64,000 bases of DNA from Fodinibius sp. Rm-B-1B1-1 (GTDB lineage Bacteria; Bacteroidota; Rhodothermia; Balneolales; Balneolaceae). The stretch lies in NCBI RefSeq assembly GCF_038594945.1, contig NZ_JBCFYD010000001.1, positions 1,364,001-1,428,000 on the forward strand, in the 5' to 3' direction. The position numbers were made by a program, and so were the translations under genes. Below are positions 1,830-56,165 of this stretch, piece after piece (position 1 is the first letter of the stretch; each line of letters starts with the position of its first letter). The notes under the pieces were generated by a model, which saw only the letters and a list, made by a program, of their open reading frames with translations, made no database searches and was not told the DNA's origin.

Positions 1830-3836
1830 ATGGCATTTACGGAGAAGATAACAGGTAGTGGTTCTGACAATAATGAACAATGGACGATAGGTAAACGGAT
1901 TAAACTGTTAACCTATGGAGGAGTAGCTTTAACATTAATTATTGGGGCAATAGCTATTTATGCGTTCAATAATATTAATAGTTCTATGACAATAATTGAT
2001 GAGGCCTACATTCAAGAATGGGGGTCTTCGGCGGCGTTAGATATTGCAGTGCGAAATGCCGATAGTGATTTTCAGAGATATATGCGGACAGGAGAAGACG
2101 CAGATTATGAGCAGGCGATTTCAAGATTTGAGAAAATAAATGGCGAAATTGGAGAGCTTGAAGAATATATAGAAGCGTTTGGCTTACCTGATTTAGTACA
2201 AGAAATGAAGGGCTTGAATAAAGCCGTTGAACGTTATCGGCAAGGTATGGAGGAGTATTACTCAGCTGCTGAAAGTCTTGAAAAAAACAGGGAGCGGGTA
2301 GCGACTTCATCTGAAAAGCTATTAGCCGTTCTTGATGAGTATATCCAAAATCCTGAGGCCGAGAATATTCAAGCAGTAACTGAGCTTAAAGCTCTTGTTA
2401 CGGATAATGAGCGAAGGATGTGGGAGGGACTTACAAGTAATAATGGAGATGTATGGCAGAATGTTATCAATTCTTATAACCAAATTAGTGACCAGGTTGA
2501 TGGCATTATTGGTGACATTGATACTGATACCGAACGTTGGGCTCAGTTGGATCGTGCAAAGAGTTTGATCGATGATAAAGTTTCACTTATTACAGAAATG
2601 CGGGATTCTAATAATCAGCTTAAAAATAATGAACAACAGGTATTTGCCGTATTTGATCAGTTAGTTGCGCAGTCGCTAAGTGTTACAGAATTAGCTGAAA
2701 ATCATACCAGGGATGAAGTTCGACTGACAAGTACTACTGCAAATACAAATTTTTGGTTGATCTCGGGAATAGGTGCATTGGCTGTTCTTTTAGCTATAGT
2801 ATTGGGAGCATTAGTGCAGCGTTCAATAAACCGAGTGCTTAAAGAAATGATTGGTCGTTTAAGCAGTGGGGCTGAACAGGTTGATGCGTCGGCCGAGCAG
2901 TTGTCGGGCGCCAGCCAGGAGCTGGCAGAAAGTTCTAGCCAGCAGGCGGCCAGCCTCGAGGAAACTACCTCATCGCTTGAAGAGATCTCATCGCAACTTA
3001 AGCAAACGGATGAGAATTCAGCAGAAGCTGAAACAGCAATGAAAGAAGCGAAGCCTTTAGTTGAAAAAGGAGTAGATGCGATGGATCGTATGCAGGGGGC
3101 TATGGAAGATATCCGAGAGTCGTCTGATGAAACATCTAAAATTATTAATACGATTGATGATATCGCTTTTCAGACGAACTTGTTGGCATTGAATGCTGCC
3201 GTAGAGGCAGCGCGAGCCGGTGAAGCTGGAAAGGGATTTGCGGTAGTGGCCGAAGAGGTTCGAAATCTTGCACAGCGAAGTGCAGAGGCGGCACAAAATA
3301 CTTCCGAGCTGATCGAAAATTCGCAAGAAAGATCTGAGCGTGGAGCTGAGGTAGCGCAGGAGGTTTCGGAATACTTGCAGAAGATTGAAGAAAAAGTAGC
3401 AAATGTAAGTACACTGGTTGTAGAAATTTCGGCAGCTTCTAAAGAGCAAACCAATGGCGTTCAGGAAATTAACTCGGCCATGTCCGAAATGGATAATGTC
3501 GTGCAGGGTAATGCTTCGGCTTCTGAGGAATCAGCAAGTTCTGCCGAGGAGTTGTCGTCGCAGGCTGCTGAACTGAATAATGTAGTAAGAGAATTATCGG
3601 TTCTTGTGGGCGGTGTGAATGAAAAAATTAAGAAAAAAGGCAATAGTTCTTGGGAAAAGACCTCCAAGAATGGGAGCTCAAATAGTAATGGTCATAACAA
3701 CTCACACTCTGCCAACAGTAATGGTTCTGAATCGATAAACAAGAAGTTTCAGGGTCAGGAATCCCAGAATGGAAATACAGATGGCAGTGAGTTGATTCCT
3801 TTTGACGAAGATGAGGATGATTTTAGTGGCTTTTAA
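1830..3836 (+). CDS. Methyl-accepting chemotaxis protein (first of two)
   Basis: A 668-aa transmembrane chemoreceptor. TM1 is near residues 27-47, an extracytoplasmic helical sensor of about 260 residues follows, and TM2 is near 308-330. The signalling hairpin tip is unmistakable ([21 protein letters not shown], about residue 443), with Glu/Gln-rich methylation helices on both sides. Only a short stretch separates TM2 from the signalling helices, so no canonical HAMP domain is apparent. After about residue 600 comes a Ser/Asn/Gly-rich tail ending in DDFSGF; the FxxF end resembles the aromatic-x-x-aromatic pentapeptides that tether CheR/CheB in some receptors (inference). The ligand is unknown. 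A terminator hairpin follows at 3885. Confidence 0.95.
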
Positions 3837-4168: not shown

Positions 4169-6175
4169 ATGAGTTTTCATAAGAAGCTTTTACGAGGATT
4201 CCTTTCCAAGTATGGGGATGAAAATAAGACGATAGGTAAACGGATACTATATATCGTAGCCGGCGGAGCGCTAATGACGCTTATTGTAGGGGTAGCGGCT
4301 ATTGTGGCTCTAAATTTTATTAACGGCTATACGGAAAAACTTACCGAAGAAAATTTAGTTGAATGGGAGATAGGAAGTTCTATCGAGAATGATATGTGGG
4401 AGTCTGGGTATAGCTTGTCGCAATACAAAAGCTCACGTGATGATGAACAATATCAACGAGCAATAGCCAAACTTGATAGTGTGGGCAAGGAAATTGAGCG
4501 AGGGAAATTAATTTCGGATTCGCTGGGAGTTACTACACTGGGAGAAGGCCTTGTAAAGATTGATACGGCATATAAAAAATATCGAGAATCGGTTACGGTC
4601 TTTCACGAAGCTATTGAGGAGTTAGATCTCTACAGGGGAAATGCAGCCCAATCTTCGGAAGAGTTTGTTAGTAGTATGAATGAATATTCTTCGATTACTA
4701 ATGCAAGTATTCAAAACCTTTCAGATACTGAAGATATACGCGCGGTACAAGAAGAGCTTGCAAACGCCGATGATATTACGAAGCGTTTTTTGGATAGTAT
4801 GGCCAAGCTCTGGCAATCCGAAGCATTAAAAAATGCAGAGGAGTTAACAGCGCTGCAAAGTGATTTTGAGGAGCTTCGTTCTGAACTGGGAACATTATAT
4901 GAAGGGGTAACCGATCCGGAGCGGGATATTCAGTTAAGCATTGCATTGGCCGTATTAAATGATAATGTGGCTAATGTTAAGGCGATGATTAACGCTCGAA
5001 AAACAGTTGAAGCACAGGAAAAAGTTCGGGCCGACTCCTATGAGAATATTGTTAATAATGCCTCAGATCTTGCTGTAAATGCCAGGGAACGGGCTAATAA
5101 CCAGGGAACTTTGACAAAAACAACGGTTGCAAATTCGCTGTGGTTTTTGAGCATTGGGGTCGCTATTGCAGTAGTAGGTGCGATTGGCTTTGGCTACTAT
5201 ATGAATGAGGCGATTAGGTATGTGTTAAGCAACATTATTGAGCGACTTTCTGCCGGTGCTGAACAGGTAAATGATTCTGCTGTGCAGATGAGTGGTACCA
5301 GCCAGGAATTAGCTGAGAGTTCGAATCAGCAGGCGGCAGGGCTACAGCAGACTACTGCCTCGCTTGAAGAGATGTCGGCGCAATCAAAACAGGCTGCCCA
5401 AAATGCGAAAGAGGCAGAAGTGGCGATGAAAGAGGCCAAACCCAAGGTAGAAGATGGGGTTGAAGCGATGGAGCGTATGAATGAAGCGATGGAAGAGATC
5501 CAAGAATCTTCGCTCGAAACATCTAAGATTATTAAAACAATTGATGATATTGCTTTCCAGACCAATTTGCTGGCACTGAATGCTGCAGTAGAAGCGGCGC
5601 GTGCTGGTGAGGCTGGAAAAGGATTTGCAGTGGTAGCCGAAGAGGTTCGCAACTTGGCCCAACGAAGTGCTGAGGCAGCTCAAAATACGTCAGAGCTAAT
5701 TGAAAGCTCACAGGAAAGTTCTAAGCGCGGGGCCGAGGTGGCCAGTGAAGTATCTGAGAATCTCGAAGAAATTCAAGATAGTGTCGAAAATGTGAACACG
5801 CTTGTTGTAGAAATATCGGCCGCATCTTCTGAGCAACAAAAGGGAATTGAGGAGATGAATTCGGTGATGACTGAACTGGATGAAAATGTTCAGGGTAATG
5901 CTTCAGCATCCGAAGAGTCGGCCAGTTCGGCAGAAGAGCTGTCCTCACAAGCACAGGAGTTAACGAATATTGTTGATGCCCTGGTAGATTTGGCCGGCGT
6001 AGAAGATGAGGCCCATCAAGAAGATGGTCAGGCAGCAAACAGCGCTCATTCCAATGGTTTTGATGAGGATTTTGAATACCATGAAAACCAAAATCATAAT
6101 GGATCAGAGAATAATGAGCAGTCAAAAAATGGCGAACCCACAAAGTTTGACAATAATAGTGTAAACGGGTTTTAA
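4169..6175 (+). CDS. Methyl-accepting chemotaxis protein (second of two)
   Basis: A 668-aa chemoreceptor, paralogous to its neighbour. TM1 is near residues 26-48 and TM2 near 326-348. The signalling domain is nearly the same as in the first receptor (tip [21 protein letters not shown], about residue 460), whereas the periplasmic sensor has diverged, which suggests duplication followed by a change in ligand. As in the first receptor no canonical HAMP domain is visible between TM2 and the signalling helices. The tail is His/Asn/Glu-rich and ends in SVNGF. It has its own sigma-28 type promoter and a good ribosome binding site (aaggggaacgac before ATG). Confidence 0.95.
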
Positions 6176-41686: not shown

Positions 41687-43042
41687 ATGGAATCGGGACT
41701 CGAATCAATATCACACGAAAGCCAACGGAATGCAGATTGGATAACGGGCGTCCTTTTTCTTTCGGAACGATCATATTATGATCACAAGAAAGTAACGCAG
41801 TGGAATAACTATTTTGGGTCGCTAATAGTGGCTGGTATGGGTACAGCACCTGAGTATTTGCCAGAGGCCGTTGACTGGTTTAGCTGTGATCCGGAGATGG
41901 GAAAGGCCCAGGTCTGGAATGCCATTGCCCGAGAGCATAGTGGCCAATGGATGCTGTTTGCGGAAGATGATGAGCAAATCCATTTTAGTGATATGCCCGG
42001 CCAACAAGCTATTGAAAATAACCAATGGGTTCCCGCTTTGATAACAATAGAGAAAGAGGGAACACAGCTACAGTATTATCAGATGCGGTTGGTTAACACT
42101 TCTGAAGCAGACGTATCAGACGTTTTTTCTGGATTTAATTTGCCCGATGCTACTGACTATGTGCGTTCTAATGGTATTATTTTGACGGATAAGCCAATTG
42201 TTATTGAACGGGAGACCAAACCACATTTAGATATTAAAATTGATGCAGAATTATCGCAGCAGAACCAGTCGCCCAAACTTTATTTGGTACAAGGTAAGCG
42301 AGATTTAAATGATAATAAGTATGTTCGGGCTGCAGCCCAGTTCCGTCAGCTGTTGAAAAAAGAAAAGTTGTTACCCTTTGATCGATTGGCAGCAGTAAAT
42401 GGATTAGCCAGCTGCTTGGCTGAGCAGCATAAATGGGAGAATGCGCTTTCATTGACCAAGCAATCGTTAGAAGCTGAATCGTTGCAGTGTCTGCCATATT
42501 TAATACAATTTCGTATCCATGAGCTTCGCAAAGAGTGGCATGATGCTCTAAATACGCTTCAACGGTATTACGATCGATTTTCACTTTTTTCTCGTGCCAA
42601 CTTTGATCGGAAGATTGATGAGGAAAAGACACTGATTAATTTAGCTAACGTAGCTTTGAAAGCAGGTCAGCGTTCAAAGGCTACCGATTATTTTGATAAG
42701 TTGTTCTCGTTTAAGCGGGGGGCAGCAGATCGCAGAATGCTGGAGAAAGCGCTTTTACTTTCTATTGAGCTTGAAGATTACGAACGGGCGGTATATTTAT
42801 TTGAACGGATGTATGGCGACCAGTTGCCTCCAAATGAGATGGAGGAACAGATACGGGAGGAGATAGACGAAGTTATGACGTTATTTATGAAACGAGACTG
42901 GTACGATTATGTATCGAATGTGTATAAAAAATTACATAATGCTCACCCCAGAGATCAAGAATATAAGCGGAAACTTATTGTAACGTTGACCAAAACAAAC
43001 AGGCTTGATCAAGCTAAGAAAATGGTTGCAAACATTGTTTAG
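41687..43042 (+). CDS. Glycosyltransferase-like protein with TPR repeats
   Basis: The 451-aa protein has an N-terminal part (about residues 15-175) that resembles a GT-A fold glycosyltransferase, with NAIAREHSGQWMLFAEDDEQI where such enzymes carry the nucleotide-sugar binding acidic motif; the region is divergent and activity is uncertain. Residues 190-450 are TPR-like helical repeats (KYVRAAAQFRQLLKK, KWENALSLTKQSLEA, DYERAVYLFERMYG). The layout recalls TPR-containing family 2 glycosyltransferases. As the last gene after flgL, 42 bases downstream and before a terminator, it probably acts on flagellar proteins (inference). Confidence 0.65.
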   Translation: MESGLESISHESQRNADWITGVLFLSERSYYDHKKVTQWNNYFGSLIVAGMGTAPEYLPEAVDWFSCDPEMGKAQVWNAIAREHSGQWMLFAEDDEQIHFSDMPGQQAIENNQWVPALITIEKEGTQLQYYQMRLVNTSEADVSDVFSGFNLPDATDYVRSNGIILTDKPIVIERETKPHLDIKIDAELSQQNQSPKLYLVQGKRDLNDNKYVRAAAQFRQLLKKEKLLPFDRLAAVNGLASCLAEQHKWENALSLTKQSLEAESLQCLPYLIQFRIHELRKEWHDALNTLQRYYDRFSLFSRANFDRKIDEEKTLINLANVALKAGQRSKATDYFDKLFSFKRGAADRRMLEKALLLSIELEDYERAVYLFERMYGDQLPPNEMEEQIREEIDEVMTLFMKRDWYDYVSNVYKKLHNAHPRDQEYKRKLIVTLTKTNRLDQAKKMVANIV

Positions 43043-45754: not shown

Positions 45755-47152
45755 TTATAATCCTAATGTAGACTGTTGGCTCTGCACGGATTGAAGCTGA
45801 CGCTGACCTTCTTGCTGCATTTGATAAATTTCGGCGAAGGTTTCGCGCTGCCGTTCTTCATACCGTTCCAAATACTTCTCTTCTGATTCAATACGGTTGC
45901 CCAGAAAGTCAATCTTTTGATCTAATCCGCTTTCAAGTGATGAAATAGTACCCCCCGTTTCCGTGAAGGTACTGGCGCGTTCGTACATCTTTGTTACAGG
46001 TGAATCATCACTGGTAAAGAGATTCTTAACTTCATCTGGTTTTTCCGTTAAGGCCTCTTTCAGTAATTGAGAATCTTCAACCTTCATATTCCCATTATTT
46101 TCGAAGCCAATACCAATCTCTGAAAGATTATCCAGTTCATCAGCCCCGGCCGACGCCATATCCGTAAGCGCTGTTTGGCGCAAATTAATCGTCAGATTTC
46201 GGATAGAACGCATATCCTGAAGGGGACCCTTATTTCCTGTTTCACCATTAATAAATGTCTGTTGGCGAATGGTCTTATTCATTTCATTGAATTTTTCAAT
46301 GAAATCATCAACGTTGTTTTCGGCTGTTTCAACATCCTTATCTACAGTGATTTGCTCTTGTTCTGTAGTAGAACCCAATAGTGAAAACGTCATGCCTGAA
46401 ATGGCATCATCTACCGTGTTTTGGCCTCGGTTAAACGTGATGCCGTCTACCGTAAACTCAGCGTCAAGATTGGTAGTGTCAGCCTTTTGATGTGACATAT
46501 TTCCGGTCACATCAGCCAAAGCTCCAGTGGCATTGGCAAATTGGATACGTTCATCGTAACCGGTTTGGGCGCTTTTAACTGAAAGCTGGACGTTACCATT
46601 ATTATCAATTTCAAACACATCACTGTCAGACTCTTCTCCCAGCATATTATTGATAGCAGAAGAAAATGATTCTAAAATCTCTTTATTCGTTTTGTCTGTT
46701 CCATCATCATTCGTAGCTGTTATAGAAACGGTTTCCGTTTTGTCACCGATAGTGATATCCACTGAACCATCTCCGCTCCCTGCTAAATCAGTTGCTGTGC
46801 CATCCATTACATTCGACAGCATAATATCTTTAGTGGCTTTTCGACCGACCGAGATGTCATAGGTATTGGGCTCTTCAAGTCCCGATATAGAATCAACCCG
46901 GATAGCTTCTTCATTGCTTGATGTCGCTTTAAGCGGATTAAAGCTATTTGAGGTAGCACTGGTAAGCTCATCAACCTGGGAAGTAAAGTCAGAAATTACC
47001 GAACTAACTTTACTGAGTGCAGATTGTTTGTCATTCAATTGGCTTTGCTGGTCTTCAAGTCGAAGCTTCTTTTGGCTTTCGAGCATTACCAGCTGGTCAA
47101 CAAACTGTGAATAGGGGTTTGATGATTGTATTAGATTACTAATAGAATTCAT
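45755..47152 (-). CDS. fliD: Flagellar filament cap protein FliD
   Basis: FliD caps the growing filament and folds flagellin. The 465-aa protein has the N-terminal helix motif NPYSQFVDQLVMLESQKKLRL (in part, about residues 12-32), a middle region with DAEFTVDGITFNRGQNTVDD and GMTFSLLGST that is typical, and the C-terminal coiled coil with RIESEEKYLERYEERQRETF. Length is normal. It is the second gene of the fliS operon. Confidence 0.94.
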   Translation of the reverse strand: MNSISNLIQSSNPYSQFVDQLVMLESQKKLRLEDQQSQLNDKQSALSKVSSVISDFTSQVDELTSATSNSFNPLKATSSNEEAIRVDSISGLEEPNTYDISVGRKATKDIMLSNVMDGTATDLAGSGDGSVDITIGDKTETVSITATNDDGTDKTNKEILESFSSAINNMLGEESDSDVFEIDNNGNVQLSVKSAQTGYDERIQFANATGALADVTGNMSHQKADTTNLDAEFTVDGITFNRGQNTVDDAISGMTFSLLGSTTEQEQITVDKDVETAENNVDDFIEKFNEMNKTIRQQTFINGETGNKGPLQDMRSIRNLTINLRQTALTDMASAGADELDNLSEIGIGFENNGNMKVEDSQLLKEALTEKPDEVKNLFTSDDSPVTKMYERASTFTETGGTISSLESGLDQKIDFLGNRIESEEKYLERYEERQRETFAEIYQMQQEGQRQLQSVQSQQSTLGL

Positions 47153-47190: not shown

Positions 47191-47511
47191 TTAGCTTGCT
47201 GCCTGTTCTTCTGTTTTGCCTTTGGCCGCTTGTTCCCAGGCATCACGCAGTGGTTCAAGTACCTCGCGGATTTCTTCGAAATTTTCTTCTCGGGCTAAAT
47301 CCTGGCAATACTGATAGAGCTGGAAAAGTTCTTCAGCAGGCTCGTGATCAAAATTCAGGCTTTCCGTTAAGGTGTCCAGTACTTCACGTACTCGCTTTTG
47401 ATCTTTGCGATAAGTCGCCTGCAGCAGTAGGTCATATAATTTAACAACCAGTTGTAATGGCGATGCATTCATGATCGCTTGTTGCTGATAAACCTGTTGT
47501 GGATTCTGCAT
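47191..47511 (-). CDS. fliS: Flagellin chaperone FliS
   Basis: FliS keeps flagellin unfolded and soluble until export. The 106-aa helical protein carries the family N-terminus with YQQQAIMNASPLQLVVKLYD (about residues 8-27) and C-terminal helices (EEIREVLEPLRDAWEQA). Length is slightly shorter than the usual 120-130. It is first in the operon, behind both a sigma-28 type and a sigma-54 type promoter. Confidence 0.92.
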   Translation of the reverse strand: MQNPQQVYQQQAIMNASPLQLVVKLYDLLLQATYRKDQKRVREVLDTLTESLNFDHEPAEELFQLYQYCQDLAREENFEEIREVLEPLRDAWEQAAKGKTEEQAAS

Positions 47512-47981: not shown

Positions 47982-50900
47982 ATGTGCAGGACAATAATTA
48001 TTAACGAATCCCTTAAGCCCTTGCAGAAAAAAATTGAACAGGCCCAAAAGTATTTGGAGTGGCAAAAACCGGATCAGGCGATTGCCGAATTGAAGCCCAC
48101 AATAGATAGTGATCAAATCCAAAAGGAGTTTGCATGGTTGCCTCATCATATGATGGGTATTGCTTTATCTTTAAAAGGTGAGCATGAGACTTCATCCAGT
48201 TATTTGAAAAAAGCAGTTACATATGGATCCGATCAGCCTGAAACCTATCACATGCTTTCGGTGAACTATTATAACCTTGGTGAATATAAGAAGGCAGAAA
48301 AATATGGGAAGGAAGCTGTGGCAATGAAACCCGCTTTTCTGAAGGCATGGTTGAATTTAGCAAAGATATATCGTGCTCAGGCAAAGCTTGATGAGGCATT
48401 ACGGTGTTACAAAAAAGCTAATGAATTAGATCCTAAAAATGCAGATGTAGCATATCATATCGGAAATATTTATAAAGATTTAGGAGATTTTAAGCAGGCT
48501 CATAAGTTGTTTGATTATGCGTTAGAGGTAGATGAGGATCATTACAAGGCCTTTTTAGGGAAGGCTGATGTATATAAAAGTACAAGGAGATTTGAAATAG
48601 CAGAGGAATATATAGAAGAAGCAAAAGAAAAGTATGGAAGTAGTACAGCAGCTGATGTGGCATTAGCAGAGATCCATAAGGGGAAGGGAAATTATGATAA
48701 AGCTATTTCTATATACGAAGAATTGATTCATAATGGAGCAGACCATGGGCTACTATACGTGAACTATGCAATTTGCTTGCAAGAGGTCGGGCGATTTGAT
48801 GAATCGGAAAAAAATTACAGGCATGCTATTGAAATATTGCCTGATCATAGTAATCCGGTTTCAAATTATCTTATGGGATTACATTATAATCCCCAAAATA
48901 GCAAAGAATATATTTTTGAAGAACATGTTAGGTTAGGAGAGAGGTTCGATAAGTATAAACGGCGTGAAAGACCTATACCTACAAATAAATCTAAGGATAA
49001 GAAATTAAAAGTTGGCTTTGTTTCCGGAAGTTTTAAACGTCATCCGGTTGGTTTTATGACCGTTGGCGCCTTGGAGCAATTGTCTTCTCAACAGTTTGAA
49101 CTTTATGGTTACACAGCAGACAATAAGTTTGATTTTGTAACCCGGCGTATTCACAAAAATATAGACGTATGGCGTTCTATCGTAGGTTATGATTCAAAAG
49201 TAGTTGAAGAAATTATAAGAGACGACGAAATAGATATACTTGTTGATCTTTCTGGGCATGCAAGCCATAGTCGCTTTGATGTCATGGCTGGGGAGCCTGC
49301 CCCTATTATTGTTAAATGGGTTGGAGGACTTTTTAATACGACTGGTATTAATGCGTTTGATTATTTGATTACGGATTGGCATGAGAGCCCAAAGGGAGAG
49401 GATCAATATTATACTGAAAAGTTGGTCCGCATGCCGGATGATTATATTGTTTTTACCCCACCAGGTTATGCCCCAAAGGTTGACGATTTACCTGCTTTAA
49501 ACAATGGCTATATCACTTTTGGGTGCTTCAATAATCCAACAAAAGTAAATGAAAAGATTATTGAACAGTGGGCTAAAGTAATGCTGCGGGTAGAAAACAG
49601 TAAGTTTTATTTGAAAAGCAAACAGTATGATACTGCTTCTTTTCGGGAGAGGGTAATCAATATGTTTGCGGATCAAGGAATTGAAGAGGATCGATTGATT
49701 TTTGAAGGTCAAACCTCGCACACCAACCACCTAAATGAATACAACAAGGTTGATATTGCCCTTGATCCATGGCCCTATTCCGGAGGTCTTACAACTTGTG
49801 AAGCGCTTTATATGGGAGTACCGGTAATAACAATGCCTGGACCTACATTTGCAGGGCGCCACTCGGCAACCCATTTAATTAATGTTGGTTTAGATGATTG
49901 GGTCGCAGATAGTTGGGATGAATATATAGAAAAGACTGTTGCCTTAGCTCAGGATCGCGAGAGTTTAGCAAAAGAACGGGGACAGCTACGAAAAAAAATA
50001 CGCAATTCACGGGTTTGTGAAGATAAGAGGTTTGGGGCCCATCTGACTGTTGCTTTTCGAGAAATGTGGGAGCAATGGATTGCAGGTTATGAAAATGATA
50101 CAAATGATTGGCAGCGTCCAATAAATATTGAGCCTCTAAAACCTGCGAAGGTTGAGGCTTTAACAGATGGACCAGAAGAAATGTCTCTTTTAACCCCGGA
50201 AGAGAATGGTGGTGGTTCGGATAGTAAAGTTGATAGGCTTGCAGAAGAAATAGATAAAGAGGAAGAACCGTTTTCTATAGAAGCTAAAGGGGGGATTTCT
50301 ATTATTGTTCCTCCAGATTTGGAGGTGCTATCAACCTATGCCTTTTTGGAGCAGGAAGAATGGTTTGAGTCTGAGTTGGATTTTGTGCAATCCTACTTAG
50401 AACCCGGTATGCATGCTTTGGATGTGGGAGCCTGTTTTGGTGGTTATGCGTTACCGATGGCAAAGGCAGTAGGAAAACAAGGGATGATTACCGCTTTTGA
50501 ACCGTCATCCAAGAGTCGAAGCTACTTAGAGAAGAGTAAGATAGAAAACAACTTGAGCCAATTGGATATTATTGGCCGTGGCGTGTCTTTTGAAACAGGG
50601 AACCTTTCCCTTAAGGAAGAAGAATCGCCAGAATTGAATAACGTAAGTGAACAAGGGGATAAAAAGATTAGTGTAACAACTCTTGATGCCTGGTGGAATT
50701 TCGCGGGTCAACCGGATGTGGATATGATTAAAGTGGATGTCAACGGAATGGAAGCTGATGTATTAAAGGGGGCTTCAGATCTGTTGGCTGGTGTCAAACC
50801 TGTGGTGGTTACTTCGATCGGGGAAGATGAAAATGACCTTAAAAATATTCAAAGGAAGTTTTTGGAACAGAATTATAAACTTTATGAATATATACCCGGA

Positions 50901-52448
50901 TCCGGTTTATTAGCTGATTTTGATGCCGGATCGGCCGTTGAGCCCTATATGATGAATATGGTTGCAATACCTGAAAGTAGTATAGAAGAGATTAGGGAAA
51001 GTGGATGGATTTTTGATGAGTCAGTAGAATATGACATTCCGGATTCACATAAATGGAAAGAAGTTTTAGAAGGACTTCCCTGGGCAAAAGAAAAAATAGA
51101 AGATTGGCAGCAGGCTTTCGTTGATGGAGATCATGATGAATATCGGCGGGCACTGAACTTAGTTTGTGCAGCTGGTCAGATAAAGGTTTCGAGTGAAGAT
51201 CCCAGGTCGCGTTCTCGAAAAGGGAGAATGCTATTAGAAGCTGCTCAAAAACTGATTGAATTATTCAATAGTGGAAAGGCTGGTATAGCTGCAGCGTTGA
51301 CTTATGTCAGGGTAATGAACCAGTTGGGGAAACGTACGCAAGCTGTAGAAATGGCCAAGCAGTTAATGGAGACAGCAAACTCCGGGAATGATATCTCAGT
51401 TAGTTTGCCATTTTTACCTCCACTGCCTGCGCAAGATAGGACCGTTGTGAAAACCCTATTTTCAAATTGGTTAACAGTGCGTATTGTAGAGGCATGGATT
51501 ATGCTAAAGGATAATACTACTTATATGAGTAGTAAAGAAGAGCAAAAGATGTTAAAAGCATTAGAAGATAATCCTGAAATATTAAAAAAGGTCGAGAAGA
51601 GAATACTTCTAAGGAAGCGATTAAATGGTGAGCAAGATGGAATTTCCAAAATAAGATGGGAAGGACGAAATGGATGGTTTTGGAATGAGATAGAAGAAAA
51701 GAAAAAGGGAATTACCAAGGGAGAAACAGTAAATGCTGAAGATAATACACCTTCTCAAGTTATTGAAGTAGCATTAAACTATAATTATTTGAATGAGGGG
51801 CGAACCACCTATTTTAGAATTCCTGAGAAAGAGCTTTTTAGGTTGCGGAATATTTTTGATGACCATGAATACTCATTGCCTGGAAACTATAGTTTGCAAG
51901 ACAATGCGGTAATTGTAGATATCGGGGCCAATATTGGTGCTTTTGCCCTTTATGCAAGGCAGTGGAATAAATCGGCCGATATATTTTGTTTTGAACCGAA
52001 TCCACTGGTGAGGTCTATGCTTGAAGCAAATACTAAAAATATAAATGGGATAACAAAAGAGTTTTGTGCTTTGGGTGATAGCGCGGGGGAACTCACGTTA
52101 TTTCAGCATCCGTATAATACGGGGGCAACAACCACTTCTCGTAAAGTTGCTGGAGCAAATGAAGTAAATGTTGAGGTGAAAGAAGCTGGAAAAGCACTGA
52201 AAGAAAAGGGGATAAAAAAGATAGACGTTTTAAAAATTGACACCGAGGGTGCTGAAATACCTATTTTAAAGGGTATGAGTGAATTGTTAGCAGATACCAA
52301 AATAATAATGCTTGAGTATCATACAGAAGAGGATCGTCGTGCTATCGATGAGTTATTGGATGATTTTTGTATTTATGATGCTGATGTGCCTGGTTTATGT
52401 GGAGTAGGAACCGTAAAGTATATTAACAAACATTTGATTGGTGAGTAA
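47982..52448 (+). CDS. TPR / O-GlcNAc transferase-like / double FkbM methyltransferase fusion
   Basis: A 1488-aa multidomain protein. About residues 1-300 are TPR repeats (AWLNLAKIYRAQAKLDEALR; YHIGNIYKDLGDFKQAHKLF). About 340-700 is a GT41 O-GlcNAc transferase domain: KVGFVSGSFKRHPVGFM with the conserved His, LVDLSGHASHSRFDVMA, and LDPWPYSGGLTTCEALYMG with GVPVITMPG. About 790-970 is a first FkbM methyltransferase (LDVGACFGGYALP, KVDVNGMEADVLKGA). About 990-1290 is helical. About 1300-1475 is a second FkbM domain (VDIGANIGAFALYA, KIDTEGAEIPILKGM). The likely job is to put a GlcNAc-type sugar on flagellin Ser/Thr and methylate the glycan (inference from domains and the flagellin genes downstream). 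Confidence 0.85.
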   Translation: MCRTIIINESLKPLQKKIEQAQKYLEWQKPDQAIAELKPTIDSDQIQKEFAWLPHHMMGIALSLKGEHETSSSYLKKAVTYGSDQPETYHMLSVNYYNLGEYKKAEKYGKEAVAMKPAFLKAWLNLAKIYRAQAKLDEALRCYKKANELDPKNADVAYHIGNIYKDLGDFKQAHKLFDYALEVDEDHYKAFLGKADVYKSTRRFEIAEEYIEEAKEKYGSSTAADVALAEIHKGKGNYDKAISIYEELIHNGADHGLLYVNYAICLQEVGRFDESEKNYRHAIEILPDHSNPVSNYLMGLHYNPQNSKEYIFEEHVRLGERFDKYKRRERPIPTNKSKDKKLKVGFVSGSFKRHPVGFMTVGALEQLSSQQFELYGYTADNKFDFVTRRIHKNIDVWRSIVGYDSKVVEEIIRDDEIDILVDLSGHASHSRFDVMAGEPAPIIVKWVGGLFNTTGINAFDYLITDWHESPKGEDQYYTEKLVRMPDDYIVFTPPGYAPKVDDLPALNNGYITFGCFNNPTKVNEKIIEQWAKVMLRVENSKFYLKSKQYDTASFRERVINMFADQGIEEDRLIFEGQTSHTNHLNEYNKVDIALDPWPYSGGLTTCEALYMGVPVITMPGPTFAGRHSATHLINVGLDDWVADSWDEYIEKTVALAQDRESLAKERGQLRKKIRNSRVCEDKRFGAHLTVAFREMWEQWIAGYENDTNDWQRPINIEPLKPAKVEALTDGPEEMSLLTPEENGGGSDSKVDRLAEEIDKEEEPFSIEAKGGISIIVPPDLEVLSTYAFLEQEEWFESELDFVQSYLEPGMHALDVGACFGGYALPMAKAVGKQGMITAFEPSSKSRSYLEKSKIENNLSQLDIIGRGVSFETGNLSLKEEESPELNNVSEQGDKKISVTTLDAWWNFAGQPDVDMIKVDVNGMEADVLKGASDLLAGVKPVVVTSIGEDENDLKNIQRKFLEQNYKLYEYIPGSGLLADFDAGSAVEPYMMNMVAIPESSIEEIRESGWIFDESVEYDIPDSHKWKEVLEGLPWAKEKIEDWQQAFVDGDHDEYRRALNLVCAAGQIKVSSEDPRSRSRKGRMLLEAAQKLIELFNSGKAGIAAALTYVRVMNQLGKRTQAVEMAKQLMETANSGNDISVSLPFLPPLPAQDRTVVKTLFSNWLTVRIVEAWIMLKDNTTYMSSKEEQKMLKALEDNPEILKKVEKRILLRKRLNGEQDGISKIRWEGRNGWFWNEIEEKKKGITKGETVNAEDNTPSQVIEVALNYNYLNEGRTTYFRIPEKELFRLRNIFDDHEYSLPGNYSLQDNAVIVDIGANIGAFALYARQWNKSADIFCFEPNPLVRSMLEANTKNINGITKEFCALGDSAGELTLFQHPYNTGATTTSRKVAGANEVNVEVKEAGKALKEKGIKKIDVLKIDTEGAEIPILKGMSELLADTKIIMLEYHTEEDRRAIDELLDDFCIYDADVPGLCGVGTVKYINKHLIGE

Positions 52449-53436
52449 ATTACATTTACATATTGGTTCCTATAAAACGGGTACAACCTCTATTCAGAAA
52501 ACATTTTTTGTCAATAAAGAAGCACTGAATGAGCAGGGATTTGTTTATCCGGGAAATACTCAAAATGACCATTTGTTATATTTTGCTACAAAGGCAAATC
52601 AGGAAAATTGGCCCCGACAATTCAAAAGTCTAAATGGTAAGAGGTTACAAGAAGCAATTGCTAAATATTTTTCTTCATTAGAAAATGGTTTTACTTCGAA
52701 TTCTAAGCAGCAACTTATATCTACGGAATATTTATTTATTCATAATTCTACGTATATAGAAAATGTTATTTCCTTTCTAAGTGATTATTTTCAGGAAATA
52801 AAAGTCTATCTTTTTATCCGCTCTCCTGAAGAATACTATAGGTCTTTTCAACAGCAAAAAATTAAAGCAAGATCTTATCTAACTCCTCCCGATCTTTTTA
52901 AATACGAATTTAAAAAAGTTGCTAAGGCCTGGAATGAGGTTGCAGAATTGGAAGTGATCCCATATCAATCTGGGATTAATTCCTGTGAAATATTGTGTGA
53001 GGAAATCGGATTAAATTTTGAGAAGCTTTCAACACCTGATAAGAATAGTAATACGTCATTATCTATAGGGCAGATGTATTTATTGGAAAAGATTCAGCAT
53101 CATTTTTATCAGGACTATGAAGATCGATTCAAAAACCAATTAGGTATAGTTTCACATATTGATGATTCTTTTACTCATAAGCCTCAAATTCAGGATTGGG
53201 TAAAAATAGTTGTTTACAATAATCATCGAGGTGATCTCGAATGGCTAAAAGAAGAGTACGGTATTGATTTTCTACAAGATTATCCGAGGACAGATGAGTT
53301 GTCAGATTTCACCACCTTTGAAAATGGCAAAGCCTCGGTAAGAGATATTTATAAAGTACCCAGCGAAGAAACCGTTGAAAAATATGAAGCGATGGTCATT
53401 GATACGCTGTTGAAGAAATTGGTGCAAAGTAATTAG
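52441..53436 (+). CDS. Sulfotransferase-like protein
   Basis: The roughly 331-aa protein starts with KLHLHIGSYKTGTTSIQ, which matches the 5'-phosphosulfate loop of PAPS-dependent sulfotransferases, and has the 3'-phosphate-binding type segment YLFIRSPEEYYRSFQQQKI at about residues 122-140. It should transfer sulfate to a hydroxyl of a glycan or other small molecule. The start is GTG 52441 or TTG 52438; either way it overlaps the OGT fusion gene, so the two are translated together. Its target is unknown; the flagellin glycan is the obvious candidate from context. Confidence 0.75.
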   Translation: MSKLHLHIGSYKTGTTSIQKTFFVNKEALNEQGFVYPGNTQNDHLLYFATKANQENWPRQFKSLNGKRLQEAIAKYFSSLENGFTSNSKQQLISTEYLFIHNSTYIENVISFLSDYFQEIKVYLFIRSPEEYYRSFQQQKIKARSYLTPPDLFKYEFKKVAKAWNEVAELEVIPYQSGINSCEILCEEIGLNFEKLSTPDKNSNTSLSIGQMYLLEKIQHHFYQDYEDRFKNQLGIVSHIDDSFTHKPQIQDWVKIVVYNNHRGDLEWLKEEYGIDFLQDYPRTDELSDFTTFENGKASVRDIYKVPSEETVEKYEAMVIDTLLKKLVQSN

Positions 53437-53567
53437 CATATAAAGATCTTGTAGGTTAAAAAAGACAGGACGATGTTGTAATCTCTCCAAAGTGATTGAC
53501 TAACGTATGAGCGAGCTTATACAAAGTAGATTACTGCTCCCCCTCGTAAGAATTCCTTTTAAAAAAG

Positions 53568-54079
53568 AAAAATATTTAAGTCGGCCTGAGGGGCACCGAT
53601 AACCATACTGCAAGCAGGAAATCAACTTACTTATTACGAACAAAAACGGAGGAGCTTATGGCAAGTTTCGGAGATTTAAACAGAGTAAATACGAACATAC
53701 AGTCCCTGGATTCGCAGTTGTCGCTGAACCAGGTGAACAAGCAGATGGCGGAAAACCAGATGAAGATGTCGACCGGTAAGCGGATTAACCGCGCCGAAGA
53801 CGACTCGGCAGGTTTTTCTATTGCTACTAAACTACGCAGTCGTGTTGGCGGCCTGAACCAGGCGATGCAGAACGTGGGTGATGCCAAGTCCGTCTTGGAT
53901 ATTACTGAGTCCAGCTATGGAACGGTTATGGATAACCTGGTGGAAATGAAAGGGTTGGCCACGCAGGCGGCCAATGATACGCTGGGTGATGAAGAGCGTG
54001 GATTTATTGGCGACCAGTTGGAAGCGCTTGGCGAAGATATTAACAAGATTGCTGACCAAACAGTGTATCAAGATTATGA
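53568..54079. repeat. 512-bp exact direct repeat, copy 1 (flagellin promoter and 5' part)
   Basis: Identical as far as I could read by eye to 55040-55551, a shift of 1472 bases. It covers the sigma-28 promoter, the leader, the ribosome binding site and the first 140 codons of flagellin. Confidence 0.85.
53576..53602 (+). promoter_or_regulatory. Sigma-28 type promoter of first flagellin gene
   Basis: TTAAGTCG-N11-ACCGATAA, with exact spacing; identical to the promoter of the second flagellin gene. It lies 55 bases before the start codon, which has the ribosome binding site cggaggagctt. Confidence 0.85.
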
Positions 54080-54626
54080 ACTGTTGAATGGTGGTCATAA
54101 TACTGCGCCTGGAACAGCTGCAAAGACGGGTAGTTTGGAGCTTGATTTCCAAGTGGGTGAGCGAAAAGAAGATGTGATTACTGCAACGATTAATGCTGTT
54201 AATGTAGGTGAGCTTTTTGCTCCCGGTGGTAGTACAGCAAACCTTGGTACGTCAAGTGGTGGTGGTACAGATTCCATTATTGCCGATGCAGCAACAACAA
54301 GTGGTGGTGGTTCCTTAACTTTTGATTCGACAGCAGGTTCTGCTGATTATCGTGAATTTATTGGAGCGGTAGATGGAGCAATTACTGAGATGTCAAATAA
54401 TGTGAATGACATTGGTATTACTCAATCATCGCTGTCGGTACGAGAGCAGACGCTTTCTGAATCAATTAGTGCGAATGAATCTGCGAAGTCTCGTATTATG
54501 GATACTGACTTTGCCAAAGCACAGAGTGAGTCCGTGAGACTGCAGATTTTGCAGCAGACGGCAACTTCTTCGCTGGCGCAGGCCAACAACGGTCCGCAGT
54601 CAGTACTTGGATTTATCGGCGGATAA
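53658..54626 (+). CDS. fliC: Flagellin (first copy)
   Basis: The filament subunit. The 322-aa protein has the conserved N-terminal helices (NTNIQSLDSQLSLNQVNKQM; STGKRINRAEDDSAGFSIA) up to about residue 140 and the C-terminal helices (LSVREQTLSESISANESAKS; DTDFAKAQSESVRLQILQQT), ending in GPQSVLGFIGG. The exposed middle (about 140-245) is short and rich in Ser, Thr and Gly, and so offers many possible O-glycosylation sites. It shares 512 identical bases at its 5' end with the second copy. A terminator follows at 54670. Confidence 0.97.
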   Translation: MASFGDLNRVNTNIQSLDSQLSLNQVNKQMAENQMKMSTGKRINRAEDDSAGFSIATKLRSRVGGLNQAMQNVGDAKSVLDITESSYGTVMDNLVEMKGLATQAANDTLGDEERGFIGDQLEALGEDINKIADQTVYQDYELLNGGHNTAPGTAAKTGSLELDFQVGERKEDVITATINAVNVGELFAPGGSTANLGTSSGGGTDSIIADAATTSGGGSLTFDSTAGSADYREFIGAVDGAITEMSNNVNDIGITQSSLSVREQTLSESISANESAKSRIMDTDFAKAQSESVRLQILQQTATSSLAQANNGPQSVLGFIGG

Positions 54627-54669
54627 TCGTAGCCGAGATATTCTGGCTCACAGCCAGGAATCAGATATT

Positions 54670-54705
54670 AAGCCATGCTACCAGTTGGGTAGTATGGCTT
54701 TTTTA
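54670..54705 (+). terminator. Intrinsic terminator of first flagellin gene
   Basis: Stem AGCCATGCTACC with GGGTAGTATGGCT, loop AGTT, then TTTTTTATTT. The same hairpin follows the second flagellin gene. Confidence 0.9.
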
Positions 54706-55039
54706 TTTGGGATATAGAATCATAGAAGACAGATAAAACGGATAGAATGGATGGCTGCGGGAAAGAATAATTGAAGAAATGCCCTCCTTATGGCAATGTT
54801 TGCATACAGGTATAATTTGTGATCCCCCAAGGGGGCTTGGTGTACTTTGCTAACCTGGTGGCTGGAAATCCTTCTTTCGACTACTGTCGGGACGGGATGA
54901 TTTTAAACTGCTCTTGTTATCTTTAAATCGCGTGGAATATAGCGCTATGAAGGGGTTCTTTATGTTATTCTATTTCTCGGAAGCTTAAGGTTTTCCTTTG
55001 TTACTATACGACTTTGTAACTTTCTAAAAGAATACAGAA

Positions 55040-55551
55040 AAAAATATTTAAGTCGGCCTGAGGGGCACCGATAACCATACTGCAAGCAGGAAATCAACTT
55101 ACTTATTACGAACAAAAACGGAGGAGCTTATGGCAAGTTTCGGAGATTTAAACAGAGTAAATACGAACATACAGTCCCTGGATTCGCAGTTGTCGCTGAA
55201 CCAGGTGAACAAGCAGATGGCGGAAAACCAGATGAAGATGTCGACCGGTAAGCGGATTAACCGCGCCGAAGACGACTCGGCAGGTTTTTCTATTGCTACT
55301 AAACTACGCAGTCGTGTTGGCGGCCTGAACCAGGCGATGCAGAACGTGGGTGATGCCAAGTCCGTCTTGGATATTACTGAGTCCAGCTATGGAACGGTTA
55401 TGGATAACCTGGTGGAAATGAAAGGGTTGGCCACGCAGGCGGCCAATGATACGCTGGGTGATGAAGAGCGTGGATTTATTGGCGACCAGTTGGAAGCGCT
55501 TGGCGAAGATATTAACAAGATTGCTGACCAAACAGTGTATCAAGATTATGA
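55040..55551. repeat. 512-bp exact direct repeat, copy 2 (flagellin promoter and 5' part)
   Basis: The partner of 53568-54079. The first difference is a silent A/G change at 54080/55552 in a glutamate codon. A second repeat pair with few differences covers the 3' ends and terminators (about 54432-54726 and 55892-56186). Confidence 0.85.
55048..55074 (+). promoter_or_regulatory. Sigma-28 type promoter of second flagellin gene
   Basis: TTAAGTCG-N11-ACCGATAA, the same sequence and the same 55-base distance to the start codon as in the first flagellin gene. Confidence 0.85.
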
Positions 55552-56086
55552 GCTGTTGAATGGTGATCATAATACTAATGCTGCAAATACAAAGTCGGGA
55601 TCATTAGATCTTGAGTTTCAGGTAGGTGAGCGAAAAGAAGATACGATTACCGCAACGATTAATGCTGTAAATGTAGCTGCATTGTTTAATACAGGCGGTG
55701 CAGCTGGTGCAGATTTAGGAAGTACTGCAGGAGCAATTACTGTTGGACTTGCAACAACAGGTGGTGGTGGTTCCTTAACTTTTGATTCCACAGCAAATTC
55801 TGCTGATTATCGTGAATTTATTGATCACGTGGATACTGCAATTACCGAAATGTCAAATAATGTGAATGACATTGGTATCAAGCAGTCATCGCTGTCGGTA
55901 CGAGAGCAGACGCTTTCCGAATCAATTAGTGCGAATGAATCTGCGAAGTCTCGTATTATGGATACTGACTTTGCCAAAGCACAGAGTGAGTCCGTGAGAC
56001 TGCAGATTTTGCAGCAGACGGCAACCTCTTCGCTGGCGCAGGCCAACAACGGTCCGCAGTCAGTACTTGGATTTATCGGCGGATAA
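55130..56086 (+). CDS. fliC: Flagellin (second copy)
   Basis: A 318-aa flagellin with N-terminal (residues 1-141) and C-terminal (last 70 or so) parts practically identical to the first copy. The exposed middle (about 142-240; TNAANTKSGSLDLEFQVGER, then AALFNTGGAAGADLGSTAG) differs in sequence and length, with several Ala/Gly/Thr-rich stretches. Both copies have their own promoter and terminator, so both are probably expressed; the filament may be a mixture. Confidence 0.97.
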   Translation: MASFGDLNRVNTNIQSLDSQLSLNQVNKQMAENQMKMSTGKRINRAEDDSAGFSIATKLRSRVGGLNQAMQNVGDAKSVLDITESSYGTVMDNLVEMKGLATQAANDTLGDEERGFIGDQLEALGEDINKIADQTVYQDYELLNGDHNTNAANTKSGSLDLEFQVGERKEDTITATINAVNVAALFNTGGAAGADLGSTAGAITVGLATTGGGGSLTFDSTANSADYREFIDHVDTAITEMSNNVNDIGIKQSSLSVREQTLSESISANESAKSRIMDTDFAKAQSESVRLQILQQTATSSLAQANNGPQSVLGFIGG

Positions 56087-56130
56087 TCGTAGCCGAGATA
56101 TTCTGGCTCGCAGCCAGGAATCAGATATTA

Positions 56131-56165
56131 AGCCATGCTACCAGTTGGGTAGTATGGCTTTTTTA
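56131..56165 (+). terminator. Intrinsic terminator of second flagellin gene
   Basis: Same stem and loop as at 54670 (AGCCATGCTACC-AGTT-GGGTAGTATGGCT) followed by a T tract. Confidence 0.9.

Follow-up and report, generated by a model that had tools for sequence, protein, structure and literature searches.

In the 64,000-nucleotide stretch of DNA analysed here (positions 1,364,001 to 1,428,000 of contig NZ_JBCFYD010000001.1 of Fodinibius sp. Rm-B-1B1-1, referred to as the window), four forward-strand genes at 47982-56086 place a large glycosyltransferase-methyltransferase fusion and a sulfotransferase-like gene upstream of two flagellins. The best explanation of the whole is that the GT41-FkbM fusion enzyme and the sulfotransferase probably make a methylated, sulfated flagellin glycan. 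The 3.4-Mb genome belongs to a Fodinibius relative within the Balneolota, and the closest named match to the 1488-aa fusion protein is that of F. salsisoli (81% identity). The open reading frame (ORF) of the fusion protein (47982-52448) encodes an N-terminal tetratricopeptide repeat (TPR) region (47982..48971, Pfam TPR matches), a SPINDLY-like GT41 catalytic domain (48972..50201; Glyco_transf_41, PF13844, 3.2e-40), a first methyltransferase-like domain, FkbM1 (50322..51101), a helical linker (51102..51671) and a second methyltransferase domain, FkbM2 (51672..52448; PF05050, TIGR01444), the two Methyltransf_21/FkbM stretches being recognised by Pfam (7.2e-33). The 3' end of this gene is overlapped by that of a 332-aa protein predicted to be a sulfotransferase dependent on 3'-phosphoadenosine 5'-phosphosulfate (PAPS; 52438..53436), with a start at TTG 52438 or GTG 52441, of which the GTG fits the homologue starts better. 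Flagellin 1 (53658..54626) and flagellin 2 (55130..56086), both with PF00669/PF00700 (Flagellin_N/C), follow as the likely acceptors. This arrangement is confirmed, the ORFs, and Pfam for all but the sulfotransferase-like gene, agreeing with the initial annotation of the DNA, which had described a GT41 domain fused to two FkbM domains, overlapping a sulfotransferase-like gene and upstream of two flagellins. Gene order, domains, active-site motifs, conservation of the locus, co-occurrence with flagellin and the capacity to make PAPS are all read directly from the DNA.

Neighbourhoods were compared in the 59 genomes searched and in eight further genomes, which together gave 31 carriers of the GT41 enzyme. 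The family lies at the fliS/fliD/flagellin locus in 30 of these, the exception (G016) being a genome without flagellin in which the enzyme is shorter and diverged. A constant frame is found in the relatives, made of flgK-flgL-TPR protein-ntrC, fliD-fliS, the giant GT41 enzyme, a set of variable genes and the flagellins. The recurrence of both architecture and gene order indicates that the arrangement is not due to chance. Among the 59 genomes, 22 have both the enzyme and flagellin, one the enzyme only, six flagellin only and 30 neither, where flagellin stands for flagellin-family genes, as the Flagellin_N model also matches flgL (G004, at a contig end, and G045 have flgL-like matches only). 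Such genes are thus present in 22 of 23 carriers, and the enzyme occurs in one of 31 non-flagellates (Fisher P=8e-10 by genome, P=2e-4 by genus). Flagellates without the enzyme have a different flagellin lineage, mostly of 46-57% identity, and the congeners G006 and G008 have neither flagellin nor the GT41 gene. These data support the assignment as a flagellin-modification locus made in the initial annotation, which had also named a search for the gene order in relatives as a check; the pair of GT41 and sulfotransferase genes does not lie away from flagella in most of them.

The protein of the sulfotransferase-like gene falls under every Pfam cut-off (Sulfotransfer_4, E=0.095). In profile-profile comparison with hhalign, it aligns to Sulfotransfer_3/1-type proteins with 97.5% probability (E=7.8e-12), over a region that spans both of the motifs described below, and the comparison profiles gave 0.1% (a Sulfotransfer_2 pair) and 0.4% (flagellins). 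K13-T14-G15-T16, a KTGTT-type loop, does not vary among eight homologues, some of them distant, and the same holds for R128 and S136, eight residues apart. In the superfamily, a loop of this type binds the 5'-phosphosulfate of PAPS, and R128/S136 presumably form the 3'-phosphate motif, with a spacing as in SULT enzymes. Profile searches of the PDB with the protein gave no meaningful match, a scan of viral contigs found no homologues, and the single-sequence AlphaFold2 model has a pLDDT of 34. A gene for adenosine 5'-phosphosulfate (APS) kinase is present in this genome (1.1e-56, G000:C2:344383), but is common among the relatives and so not specific. With a G+C content of 0.328, the sulfotransferase gene falls below the window as a whole (0.424), a difference to be expected if an island gene has been exchanged.

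Strong matches to the sulfotransferase family in 245 genomes of the class comprise six intact genes (G000, which is the genome studied here, G001, G003, G010, G028 and G067), all at the flagellin locus, and three relics with stop codons (G002, G005 and G007) at the same locus, between the GT41 gene and the flagellins. The three pseudogenes (L053, L056 and L058, respectively) represent three different stages of decay. Other Fodinibius have genes of other sulfotransferase families in the same slot, namely a PF03567 gene (G004 and G009) or two PF13469 genes (G011), and G003 and G010 have an additional Sulfotransfer_1-like gene there, so that all ten flagellated Fodinibius have a sulfotransferase or a relic of one in the slot. 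Four PF13469/PF03567 genes were observed in these intervals versus 0.085 expected from the genome-wide density, giving P=2e-6 when genes are treated as independent and P=0.003 when related cases are counted once (two events). This repeated recruitment of unrelated sulfotransferases beside flagellin is the strongest argument, although no proof, that the flagellin glycans are sulfated. Sulfation, as proposed in the initial annotation, is therefore well supported as something we infer, from the restriction of the family to the locus, the unrelated enzymes in the slot and the presence of APS kinase.

The identity of the sugar, which the initial annotation gave as O-linked N-acetylglucosamine (O-GlcNAc), probably has to be revised. 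The best PDB match of the GT41 domain is Arabidopsis SPINDLY (2.9e-75), followed by Thermobaculum TtOGT (8e-70) and human O-GlcNAc transferase (hOGT; ~1e-37). The residues that discriminate SPINDLY from OGT are K689/L866, A731/R904 and Y744/C917 (PMC10027727). The first is K545 in our protein and Lys in 21 of 21 homologues; the second is E586, with Ala in 12 of the 21 and Arg in none; the third is Y599, with Tyr in 20. The hOGT determinants for UDP-GlcNAc (L866, R904 and C917) are consequently lacking, while neither of the two catalytic residues, K521 (Lys) and H354 (His), varies. With Gly/Leu at T747/T748, the domain does not seem to be a standard SPINDLY either, and it could be a member of the intermediate clan described in PMC10027727. 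NeuB was not found in this genome, and pseudaminic or legionaminic acid was on that ground rejected as the donated sugar here. The SPINDLY-like donor residues, together with two GMD genes and no NeuB, favour a GDP-sugar over UDP-GlcNAc or a nonulosonic acid. The predicted donor is a GDP-sugar, possibly GDP-fucose, and the first sugar is, judged from these residues, probably not GlcNAc.

The enzyme is modular. Its TPR, GT41, FkbM1 and linker parts are constant in most relatives and the C-terminal module varies, being FkbM2 here and elsewhere GT2 with Glyco_trans_1_2, a Methyltransf_25-type, GT56, GT1-type or APH-like module. The part made of FkbM1 and linker was found in 27 of the 245 genomes, all within the Balneolales; the linker has no match in Pfam or the PDB, and its model is all-helical at low confidence (pLDDT 55). 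Two genomes encode a free-standing 914-aa protein of FkbM1, linker and glycosyltransferase (L054:4807-7551 and L060:4276-7020, both on the reverse strand), which shows that the FkbM1-linker pair also exists outside the giant enzyme. FkbM2 has the S-adenosylmethionine and DxEGxE motifs in their canonical form (VDIGANIG and KIDTEGAE), the form against which FkbM1 is read. FkbM1 is divergent: the Asn of GANxG is missing (GACFG), and the Glu of DxEG is replaced by Asn (DVNGME), giving a DxNG that is kept across nearly all homologues. FkbM1 may thus not methylate and may serve as a scaffold or act on another acceptor. The initial proposal of two active methyltransferases is thereby weakened, and one methyl group appears a safer expectation than two. 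Between the enzyme and the flagellins, the relatives have genes for DegT aminotransferase, WbqC, hexapeptide acetyltransferase, RmlA/RmlC-like proteins, epimerase, formyltransferase, NTP-transferase and sulfotransferases; in the window the sulfotransferase is the only variable gene of this interval. The gene content is that of a putative flagellin glycosylation island with strain-specific glycans.

From these features we infer that flagellin is the acceptor, the kind of sugar it receives, the order of the steps and the placing of the sulfate on the glycan and not on another molecule. The locus would be a cytoplasmic flagellin O-glycosylation locus of the Balneolota, in which the TPR region, probably the flagellin-binding part by analogy with FlmG, would bind flagellin prior to export. 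The SPINDLY-like domain would then glycosylate Ser/Thr of the surface region of flagellin, with GDP-fucose or another GDP-sugar as the most likely donor, and the C-terminal FkbM domain would O-methylate the attached sugar, with the divergent FkbM1 and the helical linker as a scaffold or with another specificity. Finally, the co-translated sulfotransferase would use PAPS to sulfate the glycan, leaving the filament with a coat that is both methylated and sulfated.

It could be argued that the GT41-FkbM enzyme glycosylates and methylates flagellin and that the sulfotransferase acts elsewhere, on capsule, exopolysaccharide, lipid or a small solute, or is inactive. The 2-13 PF13469 matches per Fodinibius genome make other sulfated molecules likely, and the gene has a low G+C and has decayed to a pseudogene in three of the congeners. 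This is nevertheless an unlikely reading, as strong members of the family are confined to the flagellin locus, relatives have unrelated sulfotransferases at the same position, the gene overlaps that of the GT41 enzyme and the motifs are fully kept in the intact copies. It is improbable, too, that we are dealing with a genuine O-GlcNAc transferase and with a filament that carries N-acetylhexosamine with methyl and sulfate, even though membership of GT41 and the precedents of the initial annotation speak for it, among them GmaR of Listeria, which reportedly acts in GT41-like O-glycosylation of flagellin. In the study of enterobacterial islands, too, the SPINDLY domain was taken to point to GlcNAc derivatives, though with a reservation (PMC4875605). 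The Lys and Tyr at the L866 and C917 positions and the absence of Arg at R904 argue against such an activity, and a clash between this Tyr and the N-acetyl group is described for SPINDLY (PMC10027727, PMC9715652); the bacterial enzyme TtOGT, which has the same Tyr, displayed no O-GlcNAc activity in vitro (PMC9715652).

Several observations weigh against a methylated, sulfated flagellin glycan made in the way proposed. SPINDLY T747/T748 are not kept in the GT41 domain, being Gly/Leu. GMD above the cut-off is missing from several GT41-carrying genomes (e.g. G003, G007 and G028), for which reason GDP-fucose was rejected as a universal donor, and the donors probably differ among species. The content of Ser/Thr in the middle region of flagellin does not differ between genomes with and without the enzyme (P=0.99), and a flagellin-type (FliA) promoter was sought 5' of the GT41 gene and not found. 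Decay of the sulfotransferase in three of ten flagellated congeners indicates that the sulfate is dispensable. Moreover, the described Fodinibius, F. salsisoli included, are reported as non-motile with incomplete flagellar pathways (PMC9909488), which, with the three relics and with the lack of flagellin and GT41 gene in G006 and G008, would suit a vestigial pathway in which the locus is decaying and no flagellum is made under ordinary conditions. In this genome, however, full-length open frames are seen for the GT41 enzyme, for the sulfotransferase next to it and for both flagellins, as well as for the examined genes of export, motor and hook, which leaves only a slight chance of this. The open genes in the window are fliF, fliG, fliI, flgE, motB, fliL, fliM, fliN, fliO, fliP and fliR, together with flhA, flhB, flgA, flgI, flgK, flgL and a gene for a FliA-like sigma factor.

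FliA-type promoter-like elements were seen 5' of every flagellin examined. In the window they lie at 53576..53602 (TTAAG...CGATAA) for flagellin 1 and at 55048..55074 for flagellin 2, and intrinsic terminators are found at 54670..54700 and 56130..56160, respectively, all on the forward strand. With a promoter and a terminator of its own, each flagellin appears to be a transcription unit apart from the GT41-sulfotransferase pair. The two flagellin genes, promoter and leader included, are 92% identical in DNA and are a recent duplication or a homogenised pair. On the reverse strand, the genes for the flagellin chaperone fliS (47191..47511, PF02561), divergent from the GT41 gene, and the filament cap fliD (45755..47152, PF02465/PF07195) are found. 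In nearly all GT41-positive genomes examined, flgL and ntrC flank the gene of a 451-aa protein with C-terminal TPRs (41687-43042, forward strand), which is more diverged in some flagellates without the enzyme and may have a further role in the modification or assembly of the flagellum. Further away, tandem ORFs of 668 aa (1830-3836 and 4169-6175, forward strand) share 44% identity and have a chemoreceptor-like N-terminal part.

The GT41-methyltransferase architecture is already known, and sulfation is the new part. Flagellin islands of Enterobacteriaceae, known in silico, have SPINDLY-domain GT41 proteins, nearly all fused to a methyltransferase, beside the flagellin genes, and variable DegT, FkbM, acetyl- and formyltransferase genes as in the Balneolota relatives (PMC4875605). 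Of the precedents given in the initial annotation, the FlmG class shares with this locus the combination of TPR and glycosyltransferase and the flagellar setting; these enterobacterial fusions, the nearest of all, had been omitted. The present locus differs from them in its two FkbM domains, the clade-specific linker and the recurring sulfotransferases of several families; sulfate or sulfotransferases are not mentioned in PMC4875605. A literature search that covered few subscription journals yielded no paper joining flagellin, a glycosylation island and a sulfotransferase, and no report of sulfated bacterial flagella. FlmG of Caulobacter is likewise soluble and modular, with an N-terminal specificity domain and a C-terminal glycosyltransferase, and glycosylates flagellin in the cytoplasm without an oligosaccharyltransferase, its TPR-bearing N-terminal domain having been proposed and tested as the determinant of flagellin specificity (PMC7591256). 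FlmG requires pseudaminic acid, whereas this genome lacks NeuB, and neither a methyltransferase nor a sulfotransferase is mentioned in that paper. Arabidopsis SPINDLY, a protein O-fucosyltransferase, shares the TPR-GT41 organisation and the K689 and Y744 equivalents and is the closest solved catalytic relative (PMC10027727, PMC9715652); the differences are Gly/Leu for T747/T748, Glu for A731, the flagellar context and the fusion to methyltransferases.

A functional analogy is offered by Halobacterium salinarum, also a halophile, in which the glycans of the swimming filament are sulfated by the dedicated sulfotransferases Agl30/Agl31 (PMC11980604; filament role in PMC11239922), although this filament is an archaellum with an N-linked tetrasaccharide and other machinery. 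In haloarchaea, filaments with a shortened glycan form bundles and motility suffers, with negative charge as one proposed reason (PMC11239922), and by this analogy a sulfated glycan may keep flagellar filaments apart at high salt (PMC11239922, PMC11980604). It is tempting to speculate further, if rather doubtfully, that halophilic Balneolota use a single modular GDP-sugar GT41 enzyme, the C-terminal modules of which can be exchanged, together with sulfotransferases recruited time and again, to make a sulfated, methylated flagellin glycan, in convergence with haloarchaea and their sulfated archaella. At this locus, SPINDLY-like enzymes of bacteria come with a candidate substrate that suggests itself, which gives a route to test the donor choice of GT41, and the module-swapping family would be useful in studies of protein O-glycans. 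If the proposal is true, a halophilic bacterium with a sulfated flagellum would have solved the filament problem of haloarchaea independently, and flagellin islands would be able to carry sulfate.
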